Source: Halobacteriovorax marinus
GTDB taxonomy: Bacteria > Bdellovibrionota > Bacteriovoracia > Bacteriovoracales > Bacteriovoracaceae
Reading direction: 5' to 3'
Assembly (NCBI GenBank): GCA_002163155.1
Contig: MAAO01000008.1
Span: 1 to 64,000, forward strand
Length of the DNA: 64,000 nucleotides
Part shown: positions 34,927 to 43,666 of the stretch, in pieces
Layout: the number at the start of each line of letters is the position of its first letter
How positions within the stretch are numbered: position 1 is the first letter of the stretch
Translations under genes and position numbers: made by a program
Notes under the pieces: generated by a model
Database searches by the model: none
Seen by the model: the letters and a program-made list of their open reading frames with translations, nothing else
What the model was told of the DNA's origin: nothing

Positions 34927-36132
34927 ATGCATTTAAGTCCATCCCATAAAGAAGAATTAAAACGAGTCATTAAAAGACTCGACTCTTCTTTCTACTTCTA
35001 TGATCTAGATGGACTTAAAGATCATCTAAGCTATATGAATGATCAGCGCGATGAGTCCGTTAAACTCTGGTACGCCTGTAAGGCCAATCCCATGTCGGCC
35101 ATCTTGAAAATTTTTAGAAATTTAAACTTTGGTATCGACGTGGCCTCACAAGGGGAATTGGAACAAGTCTTAAGTAGTGGTGTAAAACCAGAAGACGTTC
35201 TCTCTACTGGACCTAGTAAGTCCCGCAAGTATCTTCGCTCCATGATTTTAAACGAAGTAGACGTGATTGTTCTTGAGAGTTTAAATCAGGCCTATTGGTT
35301 AGATGAAATCGCCAAAGAATTAGGAGCAACCCCTAAAGTCTTACTAAGAGTTCAACTCTCCTGGGATGAAGGAAAATCAGTCCTAGGCGGAGATGACATC
35401 ACCCCTTTTGGATTAGACCAGAAAGAATGGATGAAGTTAGATCTCGCAAAATGTTCAAGTCTAAATTTTCAAGGTTTCCACGTTTTTCAGTGGGGAAATA
35501 TCTTAGACCTTAGTAAACTTGAAATAATTTGGGAGAAAACTATTCTCGCCCTTAAAGAGCTCTCTAGTGAAATTAAGATTGAAATGAAGGTCATTGACCT
35601 TGGTGGAGGATTAGGTATTCCCTATCAAGACCAAGAGAGAACCATCGATTTTAAAGATGTGAACACTCTCCTGATGAAATTAAAAACAAAATATGAATTG
35701 CAAACGATTTGGATGGAACTTGGTCGTTACTGTACTGGCCCTTATGGTCATTACTTAACTCAAGTCATCGATAGAAAGACGGTGCGTGGAAAAGAGTTAC
35801 TGGTACTAGACGGTGGAATAAATCACATTGCTCGTCCCGCCCTCACTAACCAGAATTTCCCCTGTGAACTCTTTAGAGAGAGCACGGCCTCTAGAACTAG
35901 TTACACTGTTCATGGACCTCTGTGTACGGCACTAGACAAGCTGGGAACTTTTGATTTACCAAATGATATCAAAGAGGGCGATTGGCTCGTTTTCTCCCAA
36001 GCGGGCGCATACGGTTTCACAGAGGCAATGCCATTTTTTCTCTGCCACAACCTACCGGCAGAAGTGATTCTCTATAATGGAGATCTCATGACTCCAAGAA
36101 CAATTAAATCCTCCTCCGATTGGTTAATATAA
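34927..36132 (+). CDS. lysA: PLP-dependent decarboxylase, likely diaminopimelate decarboxylase
   Basis: The product has 401 residues of the fold III ornithine/diaminopimelate decarboxylase family. The PLP-binding Lys is Lys52 (YACKAN). Phosphate-binding GGGLG lies near 230, and GPLCTALDKLG near 335 is the expected Cys-containing dimer motif. AGAYG follows near 360. Sequence details (FHVFQWGN) are a little unlike classical LysA and closer to decarboxylases in peptide or siderophore clusters. Its place after dapD makes the lysine-forming step the most economical reading. No other lysA was seen in the window. Confidence 0.78.
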   Translation: MHLSPSHKEELKRVIKRLDSSFYFYDLDGLKDHLSYMNDQRDESVKLWYACKANPMSAILKIFRNLNFGIDVASQGELEQVLSSGVKPEDVLSTGPSKSRKYLRSMILNEVDVIVLESLNQAYWLDEIAKELGATPKVLLRVQLSWDEGKSVLGGDDITPFGLDQKEWMKLDLAKCSSLNFQGFHVFQWGNILDLSKLEIIWEKTILALKELSSEIKIEMKVIDLGGGLGIPYQDQERTIDFKDVNTLLMKLKTKYELQTIWMELGRYCTGPYGHYLTQVIDRKTVRGKELLVLDGGINHIARPALTNQNFPCELFRESTASRTSYTVHGPLCTALDKLGTFDLPNDIKEGDWLVFSQAGAYGFTEAMPFFLCHNLPAEVILYNGDLMTPRTIKSSSDWLI

Positions 36133-37250
36133 TGAATACAATAACAAGTTCAAAAGTCCCCGTTGTAGAACTTCCCAGTGGAGAAGTACTCTCTTTAAAA
36201 GTGATCGATATTGTTGGTAAGAAGAAAGGTCCCATGTGCTACTTGCAGGCCAGTGTTCACGGAGCTGAACACCAGGGAAACGCAGTCATCTACCAACTTT
36301 TAAAATACTTAGAAAAAAATGAAATTGCAGGCAGTATCCGTCTTGTCCCCATGGCGAATCCCATTGCCTTAAATAATAAAATTGGCACCTATACTCACGG
36401 GCGCTTCAATTCCAACACAGGTGACAATTGGAATCGCCTCTACCATGACTTCACAAAAGACAATGATCAGGTATTAGAGTTTGCCAAGAAATATCTAGGT
36501 TATGACGAGCTAGACATAGACAAGCAGTACAAGTTATTACTCAGTAAACTCATAGAAGATAAGAAGAATGAAAACTCAAACTACGGCATAGACCGCAACG
36601 GTCACGTGAATATCCTCTTACAAGAACTCGCCCACAATGCCGACTATGTACTCGATCTTCACACCGGTCCCGTGGCCACACGTTACCTCTATGTACCTGA
36701 GTACCTAGAAGAGAAGTGCGCTGATCTACAATTTCCCCACAATCTCATTATCCCTAATAATTTTGCTGGCGCCATGGATGAAGCGAGCTTCATGCCGTGG
36801 ATAAACTTGCAAAGAGCATTTAAAGAACTTGGAAGAGATTATGATATTGCCTTTGAAGCCTACACAGTTGAACTGGGTAGTGAGGAGAGAATCTCTCTAG
36901 AAGAAGCACAACTTGATCTACGCCATATCCTCCACTACTTATTCCTAAGAGGTATTGTCACTGAAGAAGACAACCCTATCACTACAACGATTAAGAAGTG
37001 TAAGCTCAAAGACTACAAGACTTACTACGCCCCAAGAGGAGCTCTCTATGAATATATGGTGCAACCAGGTCAAGCGGTTAAGAAGGGCGAGGTTTTAGCC
37101 GTGGCGCTAAATTTTGAAAATCACTTTAAAGAAGAAGAAATAAAAATAGAGCTAAGAGCGAACCAAGATTGTATCGTGATCAATCACTATCCAAGTAGCA
37201 GTGTTCCAAGTGGAGCTGAACTCTTTCAAGTTATGGAGTCCATCTATTAA
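36132..37250 (+). CDS. AstE/aspartoacylase-family zinc hydrolase, candidate DapE substitute
   Basis: The product has 372 residues of the M14-like AstE/AspA family. Zinc ligands are His43 and Glu46 (SVHGAEHQGN) and His177 (VLDLHTGP). The catalytic Glu is Glu247 (YTVELGS). A C-terminal barrel-like part (GALYEYMVQPGQAVKKGEVL) is typical. The ATG at 36132 shares a base with the lysA stop. AstE removes succinyl from succinyl-amino acids, so as the last gene of a dapD-containing operon it could desuccinylate succinyl-diaminopimelate, normally done by the unrelated M20 enzyme DapE. That role is inference. Confidence 0.8.
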   Translation: MNTITSSKVPVVELPSGEVLSLKVIDIVGKKKGPMCYLQASVHGAEHQGNAVIYQLLKYLEKNEIAGSIRLVPMANPIALNNKIGTYTHGRFNSNTGDNWNRLYHDFTKDNDQVLEFAKKYLGYDELDIDKQYKLLLSKLIEDKKNENSNYGIDRNGHVNILLQELAHNADYVLDLHTGPVATRYLYVPEYLEEKCADLQFPHNLIIPNNFAGAMDEASFMPWINLQRAFKELGRDYDIAFEAYTVELGSEERISLEEAQLDLRHILHYLFLRGIVTEEDNPITTTIKKCKLKDYKTYYAPRGALYEYMVQPGQAVKKGEVLAVALNFENHFKEEEIKIELRANQDCIVINHYPSSSVPSGAELFQVMESIY

Positions 37251-37707: not shown

Positions 37708-38811
37708 TTACTCACCTGTATATTCAAAAACTTGGATTTTATACATTTGTACTTTTTCTTTAGCTATTAGATCACTATACTTTGGTGATACATCCACAAA
37801 GCCTGCCAGATCACTCTCAGGCACCCTTAAATAACTTCTAAGCACAAGAACTGCACCCACGGCGAGCGAAGGTTTAAGTTGCTGTAGATAGTCCCGCTCT
37901 AGGTCTCCACCAAAGTAACTAGGTACATCACTTAAGCTCACAAAGTTAAGACTCTTTGCTTTCACCTTTGAAGAGGCAGAGATTAAATCATGATTGAGAA
38001 AGTGTACTTTACTCTTTGAGTTAAGTGACTTCTTCATTTGTTCAAAACATTCCTCTTTCGCTTCAATCGTATTGCCATCTTCATGTTGAATTCTGCCAAA
38101 GAAACAAAGATTTAAAAAGAAACTCGACCTAGTTAGAGAATGAGTAAAGAGCCTCTCAAAAGCATTGTAGTAGTATTCAAAATGACTTTCAGGTTGATTC
38201 ATTTTAATGAAATCACCTTTATAGAGAAGAGCATTGAAGACACTCTTATTTCCTAACATAAAGAGCACCACTTTCCATTTCCTCATAGGGAAATCATTGT
38301 GATAATAGTGCACTTGATCTGAAACATTATGATACTTAAAACTTTGATCAAAGTTTTTACCGATGATTTTTTGAACAATTTTTGCAAAGACCGCAAATGT
38401 TCTCTCCCACTTCCCAATATAGAGAATAGAGCCCCACTTTAACTCACCAAAAACTCGCGTAAAATATTCAACACATTCAAAACTTAAATCTAGCGACTCA
38501 AAGATCTCTCTTCTCTTTATTGCATAGTCATAGGCCGCGTAGGGAGGAAATCCCCAAAAGGCCAGGTAATCGTGGTGACTAAGAGACTTAATACTTTCTT
38601 TTCTAAGCTCGGTTAAGAGCAACTGAGGTCTAGAGACATCAACGCAGTAGAGATTATCACATTTCTCATGAAGTAGTGGCATCGCCCTAGAACCGGAACC
38701 AGCAATGGTTAAAATATTCTTAGGTTTAAGAGCATTAATCATTCTAAACTCTAATTCAGTATCTTCATTACCTAAGGTGTAATTTAAATCTGAAAAATAC
38801 TTCTTAACCAT
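37708..38811 (-). CDS. DUF3419/BtaA-like aminocarboxypropyl transferase
   Basis: The product has 367 residues. NEDTELEFRMI (about 15-25), LTIAGSGSRAMPLL with a SAM-binding glycine motif, and VDVSRPQLLLTELR (near 60) match DUF3419, which includes BtaA, the enzyme that moves the aminocarboxypropyl group of SAM to diacylglycerol in betaine-lipid synthesis. There is no methyltransferase (BtaB) domain, so a methylated betaine head group is not implied. It is the last gene of a four-gene minus-strand operon and overlaps the preceding gene by eight bases. The substrate is inferred from the lipid-related neighbours. Confidence 0.78.
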   Translation of the reverse strand: MVKKYFSDLNYTLGNEDTELEFRMINALKPKNILTIAGSGSRAMPLLHEKCDNLYCVDVSRPQLLLTELRKESIKSLSHHDYLAFWGFPPYAAYDYAIKRREIFESLDLSFECVEYFTRVFGELKWGSILYIGKWERTFAVFAKIVQKIIGKNFDQSFKYHNVSDQVHYYHNDFPMRKWKVVLFMLGNKSVFNALLYKGDFIKMNQPESHFEYYYNAFERLFTHSLTRSSFFLNLCFFGRIQHEDGNTIEAKEECFEQMKKSLNSKSKVHFLNHDLISASSKVKAKSLNFVSLSDVPSYFGGDLERDYLQQLKPSLAVGAVLVLRSYLRVPESDLAGFVDVSPKYSDLIAKEKVQMYKIQVFEYTGE

Positions 38812-40846
38812 TACTATTCCTTTTTTTTAGGGCGTGTCCACGACAAAGAGCAAACTCTTCATCTGTAATAAAACCATTATGACCCATAATTGCAGAAAGT
38901 CTAACCCCATGAACTTTCGCCATACGATCAATTTCTAAAACTTTCTCATAACTAATATTTCTTCCAAGAGTAAAACTCTCCAATTTCCCATCCATCGCTA
39001 GAAGTGCAGTCTCAGCTAAGCAGGCGTAGACTATATTTCCCTCAAGACCTATATCAACGTTTGACTTGATTTCACCTGGAAGTTGCACTTCACCGCTGGC
39101 TATGACCATCACATCTGGTCTCTTCACTGCATCTTCTTGACTAATATCAAAAGGTCTAGAAACGTCACAGATCACACAACCAGGTTTCACAAGATCAATA
39201 TCGAGAATCTTCTTTCCCTGCGCTGAAGTCGTAGTGACAATGAGATCACAATCAGCACTATGCAAATCTGCATGAGTGGCCACTGTGATTTTACAATTAG
39301 GTGCAATTTCTTTAATGGTATCTTTTAACTCTAAGAGTTTATAGGGTCTAGGCGCCACAAGAATAATTTCTTTCCAAGTAGTCGCTAGGATCTTTGCACT
39401 CACTGAACCTATGGCACCAGTAGCACCAACAATCATAACTTTCGACTGTGTGATTCCATCAACAGTTTTAACAAGGCCCAATTTTTCAATAGCAAACTTA
39501 GCCGCCCAAATAGTTGAACAAGCAGAGAGAGCATTTCCCGTGGTGACAGGAATGGGAGAGCGCTGATCAACACTGATTCCAGCGTCCCCTACAATCTTAG
39601 TAAAAGCACCAAGGCCTATAATACCTGCATTATGAGAACTGGCGTCCTTACAAATATTTACTAGCTTCTTGTAAACTGTTTCTGGGTTTTGCTCTAAGAG
39701 CATTTTAGGCGTATCAGTTACAGTATAAATTAACCCTTGCACTTCCTTACCAGTTTTCTCTGATTTAATTCCGCTTATATTTCCATAGAAGAAACCAGGC
39801 GTGAGAGAGAAAACTTTTTCAAATATTGGACCTAGGTGTTTTTTAAAGCGTTTTGTTTTTTTAAGTAGAGGATGTTTAAACAATTGATCCTTACTTAGAG
39901 GATGAATGATAAAAGCAAATTTAGAAACTTCATCACTACCGTTTTCGTCAATGAGTTTATGATGCTCAACTTTCATATTGAGCACATCCACCCAGTGTAA
40001 AATATCATCAGCTGTGAGAGGTTCATTTTGAAAGGCCTGCATGAGCGCTTCTAATACAGAGAAATTCACATAACGGCTCTTCACCACTTTAGGCATACAA
40101 GAAATAACGTCCTTAGCACCGTCTTTTATAAGTTTCTTCTTCATGAGAGAACCCATGAAATCAAGCACAACAGTTTTTCCCTTCAAGTGTTCACGGTCAA
40201 TAATTTGTACTGTCCCTTCATTACCTACAAAGACATCACTTTTGAAGAATTTTTTTAGTCCCTTGTGAACTTTTGCATCTTCTATTTTAAAGGTAGCGAG
40301 ACTAGATTGACTAACTTTCTTTAACCCAATAAAGGGAGATACTGTATTTAAAAACTTCTCAAGTTGTTTATTGGAATTTAAATTATAGGGAAGTCTTAAA
40401 AAAGAATAAGGATCAGCAAGACATAACTTCCCATCTAATTCTTCAATAATATCGACTAGGTTCTTTTGCAGAGAACCAGTATACATCCCGACTCTCTTAC
40501 CTTTTAGAGTATTCTTATGAGTGAGGTAGAATTGTCTAAAGGCCCAAGGAATATAGACATCTTTTAAGAGCTGCCCATCAACCATAACTGTTTGTCTGGG
40601 GAGGCCCTTTAATTTTTGAGTCTGAGGGTGCTCAAGCACTTTCTTCTTAGTTTTTATTTTTGGAGGGACACCACTAAGACAGATGACATCACAAATGCCG
40701 TCAAACTTCTTAATTAAACTCTCCGCCAAGTCCATATCAAAACCAATAGCGTATTGGGTAAGCCTTAAGGACTCACCATTAAACTCTATGATCTCATCAA
40801 AGTTCTTATTATTTTGTGCAAAGGCTATAGAGACAACATGTTTCAC
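38804..40846 (-). CDS. Two-part protein with C-terminal acyl-ACP reductase-like domain
   Basis: The product has 680 residues. The C-terminal third (about 405-650) resembles the cyanobacterial long-chain acyl-ACP reductase AAR: NAGIIGLGAFTKIVGDAG, TTGNALSACS, the Rossmann motif VMIVGATGAIGS, and ACLAETALLAM with Cys609, matching the acyl-carrying Cys (Cys294 in the Synechococcus enzyme, from memory), followed by FTLGRN. It should yield fatty aldehydes. The N-terminal part (1-300) recalls an uncharacterised family often labelled quinate 5-dehydrogenase. It overlaps both operon neighbours by four to eight bases. Confidence 0.75.
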   Translation of the reverse strand: MKHVVSIAFAQNNKNFDEIIEFNGESLRLTQYAIGFDMDLAESLIKKFDGICDVICLSGVPPKIKTKKKVLEHPQTQKLKGLPRQTVMVDGQLLKDVYIPWAFRQFYLTHKNTLKGKRVGMYTGSLQKNLVDIIEELDGKLCLADPYSFLRLPYNLNSNKQLEKFLNTVSPFIGLKKVSQSSLATFKIEDAKVHKGLKKFFKSDVFVGNEGTVQIIDREHLKGKTVVLDFMGSLMKKKLIKDGAKDVISCMPKVVKSRYVNFSVLEALMQAFQNEPLTADDILHWVDVLNMKVEHHKLIDENGSDEVSKFAFIIHPLSKDQLFKHPLLKKTKRFKKHLGPIFEKVFSLTPGFFYGNISGIKSEKTGKEVQGLIYTVTDTPKMLLEQNPETVYKKLVNICKDASSHNAGIIGLGAFTKIVGDAGISVDQRSPIPVTTGNALSACSTIWAAKFAIEKLGLVKTVDGITQSKVMIVGATGAIGSVSAKILATTWKEIILVAPRPYKLLELKDTIKEIAPNCKITVATHADLHSADCDLIVTTTSAQGKKILDIDLVKPGCVICDVSRPFDISQEDAVKRPDVMVIASGEVQLPGEIKSNVDIGLEGNIVYACLAETALLAMDGKLESFTLGRNISYEKVLEIDRMAKVHGVRLSAIMGHNGFITDEEFALCRGHALKKRNSNG

Positions 40847-41883
40847 TTGCCCTCCCTAAGTAACTTCTTAGCTTTCTTAAAAATGGCCTCATGATAAGTA
40901 TCAAAACTAGAAAGCTCTTTTAAACCTAAGTCTTTTTTAGCATTCTTATTTCCGTAATTCACAGGAGTGGTCATGTAATGAATGATTTCACTGGGAATTC
41001 CTAAGAGATCGAATGATTTTTCAATCAAGGGATGATTATCCATAGAGACAATCTTTGTTTGGATATTAAAAGCTGCTAAGCTCCGATAAATAAGCTCTTC
41101 TACTTTTGGAGCTTCCCTATCTACCAGCTGATAACACTTTATCTTCTCTTCACTCTCTTCGCCTGCAACACCAAGAGCTATCATTTTTGCTACATGATCA
41201 ACTGAGACAACTGGAAGTGTGGCCTTAGAATTTAGTGGCAGAGGAAGAAATGGTAAGTGAGTGATGGCAGGGGCGACACTTTTAAACTTCGCCATCCTTT
41301 CCCAAAAATAATAAGGACCATCAATTTTTTCAAATTCACCAGTCTCGCTGTGACCAATGATAATTCCTGGTCTATATATTTTAATTTTAAAGTCACCTTT
41401 AACATTTCTCACAATTCTCTCGGCCTCATATTTAGTGGAAGAGTAAGGATTGGAAAAATTCTGAGACGCATAGAAATCGTCCTCATTAAACTCTCCCCCA
41501 TGATCACCACTCACAGCTATGGTGCTGACATAGTGAAAAGTCTTTAATTTCTTACAGAGTTTTGCAAAGAAGAGAACATTCAGTGTTCCTAGGACATTTT
41601 GCATATAACAAGTGGGATGGTCGCCTTTTAAATCATAGAAGGCCCCCATGTGGAGAATACTTTCAACATTTTCTAGAAATTCTAAGACACTGCCCTCGAT
41701 GAGATCGGGTTCAGTCAGGTCCCCTTTCACAAGGGTAATATTGTCGTATTGAGAATATAAGGCACGCGCTTTTTGTAGACTATTTTTTCTAACTAATAGA
41801 TAGAGATGATCCTGTGATTTTGCTAAAAGTGGAATCAATTCTTTACCTAAATAACCAGTGCTACCGGTTATGAAGAGCTTCAT
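40843..41883 (-). CDS. Extended SDR, fatty-acyl-reductase/thioester-reductase-like
   Basis: The product has 346 residues. It begins MKLFITGSTGYLGKELI (NADP-binding TGxTGxxG), with the catalytic YSSTK (Tyr and Lys) near 147-151 and the preceding Ser in HYVSTIAVSG. The family (NAD_binding_4) includes fatty-acyl-CoA reductases and NRPS thioester reductases. In this operon a step of aldehyde or acyl reduction to alcohol is likely. It overlaps the preceding gene by ATGA and the next by four bases. No acyl-carrier domain is present. Confidence 0.8.
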   Translation of the reverse strand: MKLFITGSTGYLGKELIPLLAKSQDHLYLLVRKNSLQKARALYSQYDNITLVKGDLTEPDLIEGSVLEFLENVESILHMGAFYDLKGDHPTCYMQNVLGTLNVLFFAKLCKKLKTFHYVSTIAVSGDHGGEFNEDDFYASQNFSNPYSSTKYEAERIVRNVKGDFKIKIYRPGIIIGHSETGEFEKIDGPYYFWERMAKFKSVAPAITHLPFLPLPLNSKATLPVVSVDHVAKMIALGVAGEESEEKIKCYQLVDREAPKVEELIYRSLAAFNIQTKIVSMDNHPLIEKSFDLLGIPSEIIHYMTTPVNYGNKNAKKDLGLKELSSFDTYHEAIFKKAKKLLREGK

Positions 41884-42857
41884 GACAAAGTGACCTCGTT
41901 TCTATGGTTTATAAGAGACTTTTCGTCATCTTTTGAATAAACCTTTAACGAAGAAGGGTTGATTTCTATGTCCCAAATGTTCTTGGAATCTGCGCTACTG
42001 TTAAGGACTTCCCCATCTCCAAAGAAGAAAACTTCCTTTTCTGGCATGAGGTTCTCAATTTGCATTTTATCTGTTTCAAAAGATATCACATCCGGGTCAC
42101 CGTAGGGATATTGATTCATGGCCATTTTATAGCAGCATCTAAGAAACTTCTTATGGTCAGTATGTTTGAAAATAGTGACGTTGAACTTACCGTCCTGATT
42201 GCTGGTATCTGGTGCCACATTAAATGTGCCCGCCAAGTGAGATTGATTATTAATCAATAAGAGCGGTGTATCGACAATTCCTGAGAATTGTTCGGATTCA
42301 ATCTTTAATTTATAGTTTGGAAATTTTAGACCCTTGAGCTCACTTAGAATAAAGAACGAGTAAATACTCTTTCCTGTGAGGTTCATTAATTTCTTAAATC
42401 TAGGAAATTTAGCTCTAAGTTCATTTATCTTTTGAGAAACTTGGGCACCAAGACCTAGTCCTCCGTTAGTGGCCATATAGAGTCCGTTCACTTTTATAAG
42501 ATCAATATACTTGTATTCGTTATTTCTAATGAAGTGAGTGATATTTTTCACACTCTGCTTATTACCAAGCTCTGTCGCCAGATCATTTGCCGTTCCTCCG
42601 GCCATAACCAGAAGACCAATGTCCTGTCCCGCTAAAGATTGGATCAAGGTATTCACTGTTCCATCACCACCAACAGAAACGATGGCATCACATTTTGCAT
42701 CAATATCATTAACAAGATTTTCTTTTAATTCGACTAGATTATTAGGTGTTCTATAAGTGATATCACTTCTAAAGAGCGATTGATCAATTTGTCTCTTCCA
42801 GTAGTGGAATGACGTGTGACTGGCCCTCTTATTTAGATATACACTAATATTTTGCAT
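41880..42857 (-). CDS. Diacylglycerol/lipid kinase family protein
   Basis: The product has 325 residues. The DAGK catalytic core is clear: CDAIVSVGGDGTVNTLIQ with GGDG near 63-66, and AGGTANDLATELG near 85-97. The second domain (about 140-310) has the YegS-like beta sandwich and the GDGE metal-site region (FFGDGEVL). It should phosphorylate a lipid alcohol such as diacylglycerol. It is the first gene of a four-gene operon with the acyl reductases and the BtaA-like protein. GAGG precedes the ATG. It is divergent from the methyltransferase gene at 42992. Confidence 0.87.
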   Translation of the reverse strand: MQNISVYLNKRASHTSFHYWKRQIDQSLFRSDITYRTPNNLVELKENLVNDIDAKCDAIVSVGGDGTVNTLIQSLAGQDIGLLVMAGGTANDLATELGNKQSVKNITHFIRNNEYKYIDLIKVNGLYMATNGGLGLGAQVSQKINELRAKFPRFKKLMNLTGKSIYSFFILSELKGLKFPNYKLKIESEQFSGIVDTPLLLINNQSHLAGTFNVAPDTSNQDGKFNVTIFKHTDHKKFLRCCYKMAMNQYPYGDPDVISFETDKMQIENLMPEKEVFFFGDGEVLNSSADSKNIWDIEINPSSLKVYSKDDEKSLINHRNEVTLS

Positions 42858-42991: not shown

Positions 42992-43666
42992 ATGGAAGCA
43001 AGTTTTTGGAAGAATGCGTGGGTTGATAGAAATATAGGTTTTCACTTAACTGAGTACAACTCCTTTCTACTAGAGGCCATAAAGGTCAAAGAGATAGCAA
43101 CTAAGGGTGCGTGTCTCGTTCCACTTTGCGGCAAGACTCTAGATATGATTTATTTACGAGATCAGGGATTCTCAGTCATAGGTTTTGAATTGGCCAAGCA
43201 AGGTGTCTTAGAATTCTTCGAAGAGAACAAGATTGAGTACACCCTTACTAAAGATGAGTTCTATGAAATTTTCCAAAGTCAGGGGCTCACTATTTATTGT
43301 GGAGACTTCTTTAACGCTAAGAAAGCCGACCTACCAAGTTTTGACCTAATCTATGACCGTGCTTCAAATATTGCACTACCGAGTGAAATGCGAACTAAGT
43401 ACTACGCAAAAATTAAAGAGCTGAGTTCTCCTAAGAGCGAAATGATTCTTATGACAATGATGGGAGAGAAAACGAGTGACGGTTCGGAAGATTTAATCGG
43501 CCCTCCTTTTAGTATTTCAAAAGAAGAAACAATAGAGGCCTACCAAACAGAGTGCGAATTTTTTGAAATCCTAGAAGAGAGAAAAATGAAGATCAATTCT
43601 AAACGTCTAAAAGACGCAGGCATAATTTCTAGAAAATTTCTTGGGTACTATTTGAAATTTAAATAA
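42992..43666 (+). CDS. tpm: Thiopurine S-methyltransferase
   Basis: The product has 224 residues with the TPMT signature: FWKNAWVDRNIGFHLTEYNSFL at the start (given as a region, about 5-26), LVPLCGKTLDMIYL near 42-55 (SAM loop), and YDRASNIALPSEMR near 117-130. Bacterial Tpm methylates thiopurines and selenite or tellurite compounds. The length is normal. AGGAA lies before the ATG. It stands alone between divergent and convergent neighbours. Confidence 0.87.
   Translation: MEASFWKNAWVDRNIGFHLTEYNSFLLEAIKVKEIATKGACLVPLCGKTLDMIYLRDQGFSVIGFELAKQGVLEFFEENKIEYTLTKDEFYEIFQSQGLTIYCGDFFNAKKADLPSFDLIYDRASNIALPSEMRTKYYAKIKELSSPKSEMILMTMMGEKTSDGSEDLIGPPFSISKEETIEAYQTECEFFEILEERKMKINSKRLKDAGIISRKFLGYYLKFK

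Follow-up and report, generated by a model that had tools for sequence, protein, structure and literature searches.

In a 64,000-nucleotide stretch of the Halobacteriovorax marinus genome (assembly GCA_002163155.1, contig MAAO01000008.1, positions 1 to 64,000; hereafter the window), four overlapping genes at 37708-42857 on the minus strand encode a lipid kinase (LK), an NAD_binding_4 reductase (NB4), a fused protein of the acyl-ACP (acyl carrier protein) reductase type (AAR) and a DUF3419 protein. We consider that they probably make up the core operon of a pathway, conserved in Bdellovibrionota, that leads via a fatty aldehyde to a lipid-like molecule derived from an acyl group. A predator living in the periplasm of another bacterium needs an unusual envelope, and little of its lipid chemistry has been assigned to genes. 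Here, a gene set was found whose order is strict across the phylum and whose active sites are intact; no described product was found for it.

Gene order and conservation of the operon

The four open reading frames (ORFs) run 42857-41880, 41883-40843, 40846-38804 and 38811-37708, with overlaps of 4, 4 and 8 bases. A first-pass annotation of the window had named the same overlaps and the same four families, and the ORFs and profile matches agreed with it in every point. Relatives of AAR were sought in 59 relatives, in named genomes (16 loci, mostly from metagenome-assembled genomes labelled Halobacteriovorax, Bacteriovorax or Bacteriovoracaceae) and in 369 Bdellovibrionota genomes. The fetched neighbourhoods, amounting to 67 distinct loci, were mapped with profiles made from close relatives; those 56 that had 3 kb or more of upstream sequence were counted as testable. 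LK, NB4 and AAR were contiguous, in the same order and on one strand in 56/56 testable loci. DUF3419 lay directly downstream of AAR in 35 of the 67 loci and somewhere within the fetched locus in 54 of the 67. Adjacency across Bdellovibrionota was the check that the annotation itself had proposed, and it spoke for the operon.

Among the 369 genomes, AAR was present in 110, a strong DUF3419 match in 124 and both in 103. Thus, DUF3419 was found in 103 of the 110 genomes with AAR versus 21 of the 259 without it (Fisher test, 1.5e-60, a value that ignores relatedness). The complete 2.7 Mb genome G041 (family f6, genus g38) had no AAR match; G207, of the same genus, had DUF3419 and was not listed with an AAR match.

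In the window, the operon is flanked by two genes, ornithine-decarboxylase-like and AstE/AspA-like in that order (34927-37250), and by a gene for a TPMT-type methyltransferase (42992-43666). These genes were found beside the operon in most genomes of the genus and were recognised there in the genus only. Because the order of LK, NB4 and AAR was kept in every testable locus while the flanking genes were recognised in the genus only, the operon is more than a chance neighbourhood, and chance was rejected as an explanation. A read-through or frameshift artefact was also ruled out, all four ORFs being intact in tens of genomes. A promoter and terminator scan gave 27 promoter-like sites (17.2 expected) and 2 terminator-like sites (4.1 expected), with no clear operon signal.

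The catalytic residues of LK, NB4 and AAR were invariant across 60-73 diverse homologues. LK (gene 1, 325 amino acids, 41880-42857) is a DAGK_cat/YegS-type lipid kinase, scoring above the Pfam gathering scores for DAGK_cat (PF00781, E 1e-14; 54.2 versus 23.6 bits) and YegS_C (PF19279, E 4e-11; 43.4 versus 27 bits). Its GGDG motif (residues 63-66) was kept in 61/61 homologues, as were the D and G of its DGE motif. NB4 (gene 2, 346 amino acids, 40843-41883) is an extended short-chain dehydrogenase/reductase (SDR) that matched PF07993 with 139.2 bits (gathering score 20.1; E 2e-40); its best NCBIfam match was PRK07201 (222 bits, cutoff 549). GxxGxxG, Ser120 and the YxxxK residues Tyr147 and Lys151 were kept in 70/70 homologues.

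The fused reductase and the second cassette

Gene 3 (680 amino acids, GTG start, 38804-40846) encodes the fused AAR protein. In its C-terminal half, this protein is related to the N-domain of PigE (E 3.5e-44) and to the long-chain acyl-ACP reductase model TIGR04058 (E 1.5e-20). Its bit scores were under the curated cut-offs (73.8 versus 449.7 for TIGR04058; 151.3 versus 850 for NF053554). By these scores, the protein is a relative of the long-chain acyl-ACP reductase and PigE models, not an equivalog. Among solved structures, it matched 4ppm (E 1e-25; labelled as an aminotransferase, of which residues 2-336 were matched) and 6jzq (E 3e-13).

Within the catalytic domain (residues 306-676, 38819-39931), the GATGAIG motif (474-480) was kept as GATG[SA]IG in 73/73 homologues. 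Cys609 (codon at 39020-39022; the number was counted from the aligned end of the alignment) was also present in 73/73, in support of the retained acyl-Cys position named in the first-pass annotation. This predicted acyl-accepting residue aligned with C294 of cyanobacterial AAR, which is the acyl-accepting residue of that enzyme (PMC9594044). The equivalent in PigE is Cys296; PigE is needed for reduction of a thioester intermediate, and its N-domain takes part in thioester reduction (PMC8341465). The TR domain of TamH has likewise been classified as AAR (PMC9594044). Since Cys609 and GATGxIG are invariant and Cys609 matches C294/Cys296, the conversion of an acyl thioester to an aldehyde is better founded than any other step of the proposed pathway.

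No Pfam family matched the N-terminal half (residues 1-300, 39947-40846). The AlphaFold model of this half, built from 16 sequences, reached a pLDDT (predicted local distance difference test) of 84, and its best VIA match was the AAR structure 6jzy (Z 12.0, root-mean-square deviation 4.6 over 242 aligned residues), followed by carmabin TAD 9e56 (Z 11.6) and by unrelated dehydrogenases from Z 9.8. Comparing the N- and C-halves of 73 diverse homologues with hhalign, we found them co-linear over 254 columns with a P of only 0.029; profiles of the two halves built from close relatives gave no signal. As the half-versus-half signal is weak, a domain duplication rests mainly on the structure match. 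In the alignment of the two halves, the N-half lacked the catalytic cysteine and the glycine motif (GxxGxxG). Judging by the model, the fused part is likely a degenerate second AAR-like domain and not another activity, and its role is probably structural, regulatory or docking. Free-standing copies of the N-domain, away from the operon and without a catalytic domain, were seen at four other loci (L047 5592-6545, L048 5887-6843, L118 4980-5918 and L120 2995-3951).

A second cassette adjoins the four-gene core in most Bacteriovoracaceae and in Bdellovibrio-type genomes. It encodes a Formyl_trans_N protein, an OleB/OleC-like fusion, a UbiA prenyltransferase and an enzyme with PPDK_N and phosphoenolpyruvate (PEP)-utiliser domains; in the genome studied here it lies outside the window, at about 678-685 kb of G000:C1 (L147 10029-16736). 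The OleB/OleC-like protein is an alpha/beta-hydrolase fused to an AMP-ligase (798 amino acids; split in some genomes) that scored 239 bits against the olefin beta-lactone synthetase model. The PEP-type dikinase (890 amino acids) scored 1022 bits against NF004881, above the cut-off of 883, and 382/391 bits against the PigC/RedH models; it is also related to rifamycin phosphotransferase. On gene content, the four-gene operon is half of a larger predicted two-cassette pathway. To infer the product from the four enzymes alone, as the first-pass annotation had done, was premature, for this second conserved cassette belongs with them.

In one genus (L106 8063-12545), AAR is followed by a metallo-beta-lactamase-fold protein and a cytochrome P450, and one protein joins an AMP-ligase to a UbiA-like part; these additions are, by their families, putative lineage-specific tailoring functions. 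A UbiA-dikinase pair recurs in Actinomycetota: on a Streptomyces clavuligerus plasmid (L174 2936-6759), a PEP/pyruvate-binding protein is encoded beside a UbiA-like one, with AfsA-like and NADP-dependent oxidoreductase genes nearby.

The same similarities bear on whether the product might be a specialised metabolite, secreted or bound to the cell and resembling prodiginines, tambjamines or beta-lactones, instead of a structural membrane lipid. The AAR domain comes nearest to PigE, the dikinase is related to PigC/RedH, the ligase is OleC-like, and a P450 and a metallo-hydrolase are inserted in the one genus just mentioned. However, the dikinase scores far higher on NF004881 than on PigC/RedH, no aminotransferase domain follows the AAR domain as it does in PigE, and the genes are near-universal in several families and strictly conserved, suggesting a core trait. 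We regard a specialised metabolite as unlikely, although of the other explanations it survives best.

The DUF3419 protein and BtaA

Gene 4 (367 amino acids, 37708-38811) matched PF11899 with 107.7 bits (gathering score 28.2; E 1e-30). It was compared with BtaA references from Rhizobiaceae replicons (L162, with BtaB annotated, and L175, L176 and L177, with BtaB from the next ORF) and with a fifth reference (L164) that was assigned by similarity and in which BtaB was not read. Identity to the five was 15-16%. In a maximum-likelihood tree, the operon DUF3419 proteins formed one clade (99/99) and BtaA another (100/99); one Deefgea DUF3419 protein fell inside the operon clade, and two outside rows were on long branches of uncertain placement. 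Where BtaA has LLDAQDWM, the operon proteins have SLSDxxSY (SLSDVPSY in the window, its LSDVPSY encoded at 37915-37935), and the S, D, S and Y were kept in 60/60 operon homologues. By sequence, the window protein is placed in a separate, uncharacterised branch outside the BtaA clade.

The first-pass annotation had called this protein BtaA-like and had named placement outside the BtaA-like transferases as a finding that would count against its proposal. That placement holds for clade and motif, and the protein still belongs to the same Pfam superfamily as BtaA.

A structure model of the protein (pLDDT 89) matched class I Rossmann folds that depend on S-adenosylmethionine (SAM), and because of this fold the protein likely uses SAM. 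The Foldseek/VIA matches included many SAM-dependent methyltransferases and the nocardicin aminocarboxypropyl transferase 8zhu (Z 10.6), and do not separate methyl from aminocarboxypropyl transferases. A sequence search with the DUF3419 protein against solved structures gave no match.

Under a betaine-lipid variant, gene 4 would be a true BtaA making diacylglyceryl-homoserine without methylation, the other genes giving an ether or alcohol backbone. The shared Pfam family, the ED motif and SAM motif I are compatible with it. Against it, we found the low identity, the separate clades, the replaced LLDAQDWM and no BtaB at the locus: among the neighbouring genes, none for BtaB adjoins gene 4, and the nearest methyltransferase is of TPMT type, on the other strand and beyond the operon. 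In addition, the DUF3419 proteins of three other Bdellovibrionota genomes scored 379-393 bits versus about 107 here (G292:C319:7217-8347, G242:C98:6932-8080 and G225:C5:112791-113924); they are better candidates, on score, for real BtaA in this phylum than the operon protein. Because gene 4 lies outside the BtaA clade, without the BtaA motif and at 15-16% identity, a diacylglyceryl-homoserine product is not indicated, and we hold the variant to be improbable.

Other neighbourhoods contain DUF3419 in different company. In Rhizobium (L159 1820-8158), it follows genes for KASIII, an OleD-like protein, a metallohydrolase and an F390-synthetase-like protein; in Deefgea (L158 19258-21487), it occurs with a haem-oxygenase-like iron enzyme and SpeD, and in Mycobacterium riyadhense (L173 5043-7760) with a haem-oxygenase-like iron enzyme and a GNAT protein. 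From such neighbourhoods, DUF3419 is a family with several predicted biosynthetic roles. DUF3419, often read as BtaA, splits into at least two functional groups; therefore, DUF3419 alone is unfit as a marker of betaine lipids.

Proposed pathway and comparison with known systems

We infer the order of steps, the substrates and the product from gene families and active-site residues. AAR would accept a fatty acyl group on Cys609, either from ACP or from CoA, and reduce it with NAD(P)H to the aldehyde, the step most strongly indicated by residues and relatives. NB4 may reduce an aldehyde or a keto function in the chain, and the YegS-type LK may phosphorylate a lipid hydroxyl. From its family, the DUF3419 protein would carry out a SAM-dependent tailoring of the lipid, most likely transfer of a 3-amino-3-carboxypropyl group and possibly of a methyl group. 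The second cassette would supply or join the other half of the product: the OleC-like ligase could activate an acid, UbiA could transfer a prenyl or similar diphosphate-linked chain, and the PEP-type dikinase could perform an ATP-dependent phosphorylation or condensation like those of the related Rph and PigC/RedH. An amino group may be capped by N-formylation through the formyltransferase-like protein.

Export genes join the locus in f19, in the Bdellovibrio-like family f6 and in certain other lineages. They encode a LolD-like ATPase together with a permease resembling LolC/E or MacB, a LolA_like carrier and a protein predicted to lie in the outer membrane. In genomes of Bdellovibrio type, and in some others, this export set might carry the product to the outer membrane.

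Several points weigh against a lipid pathway of this kind. Orthologues of the export set were not found in the genome that contains the window (LolA E 8e-6; permease none); because of this, export is predicted to be either a lineage-dependent addition or, in this genome, the work of other proteins. Some genomes have DUF3419 at a distance from the core (for example L104 and L106, where it is present elsewhere), and in L044, L083 and L107-L109 it is inverted. None of the four operon proteins reached a curated NCBIfam cut-off. Moreover, since YegS-type and NAD_binding_4 proteins have many substrates, the label "lipid" is drawn from what these families tend to do and from the partners, AAR and the OleC-like protein.

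That the operon serves catabolism or salvage of prey-derived fatty acids and lipids is very improbable: the hosts are predators, and the aldehyde/alcohol reductases and lipid kinase could use imported lipids, but UbiA, the SAM-dependent transferase, the dikinase and the LolA-like export genes are of biosynthetic or export types, and, apart from the OleB-like part of the ligase fusion, the locus has no recurring genes for hydrolases, beta-oxidation or uptake.

We retain the two-cassette pathway for an acyl-derived, lipid-like molecule as the probable reading. A wider version of it, offered tentatively, is that some eight enzymes in two cassettes might make an undescribed lipid class, which a dedicated Lol-like exporter would carry to the outer membrane in some lineages. 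Much of Bdellovibrionota, the intraperiplasmic predators among them, would share this conserved trait, and DUF3419 would have a second, non-betaine function.

All the families are known. What appears to be undescribed is the way they are combined, the conservation of this combination across the phylum, the tandem architecture of AAR and the DUF3419 clade outside BtaA. In open-licence papers, we found no described pathway with this gene combination, in line with the first-pass annotation, and nothing on these genes in the literature on Bdellovibrio membrane lipids; DUF3419 occurred in four papers, which by their titles all concern eukaryotes. A comparative genomics paper on Bdellovibrionota did not mention any of the pathway terms sought in it.

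Each part of the operon resembles a known system and departs from it. LK shares the GGDG(T), GGTxND and DGE motifs and the C-terminal YegS_C domain with YegS/DgkB-type lipid kinases, but scores 80 bits against TIGR00147, under the cut-off of 118.65. The AAR domain shares with PigE (prodigiosin), TamH (tambjamine) and cyanobacterial AAR the catalytic Cys at the C294/C296 position, GxxGxxG, a length of about 340 residues and the expected conversion of an acyl thioester to an aldehyde. In PigE, however, an aminotransferase follows the reductase domain, whereas here the reductase is fused to the degenerate AAR-like N-domain; there is no aldehyde-deformylating oxygenase at the locus. With the BtaA of the BtaA-BtaB pathway to diacylglyceryl-trimethylhomoserine (DGTS), gene 4 shares the PF11899 superfamily, an ED motif near the N-terminus and SAM motif I, and differs in clade, motif and partner as described above.

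With the Ole pathway (oleABCD and oleBC fusions), the common features are the OleB/OleC-like fusion of the second cassette and NB4, an extended SDR like OleD. Equivalog cut-offs were not reached (44.1 bits for NB4 against each of the OleD models NF042422 and NF042423, cut-off 580), and UbiA, the dikinase, the kinase and DUF3419 are extra here. No OleA-like thiolase recurred at the fetched loci; nine unclassified KASIII-type genes lie elsewhere in the genome that contains the window.

The closest parallel outside the phylum is on a plasmid of the alphaproteobacterium Roseinatronobacter sp. S2 (NZ_CP121116.1, L161 523-8507), where genes for UbiA, a PEP/pyruvate-binding protein, DUF3419, two unnamed proteins and an AMP-binding protein stand in this order. 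UbiA, a PPDK_N/PEP-utiliser enzyme, DUF3419 and an AMP-ligase are thus together, as in the two cassettes, but the lipid kinase, NAD_binding_4 and AAR are absent by Pfam. Its DUF3419 protein reads NLSD and is on a long branch nearer to BtaA, of uncertain placement. This operon likely represents a related pathway outside Bdellovibrionota. That DUF3419 again occurs with UbiA, a PEP-type enzyme and an AMP-ligase, in a different phylum, independently supports its place in such a pathway.

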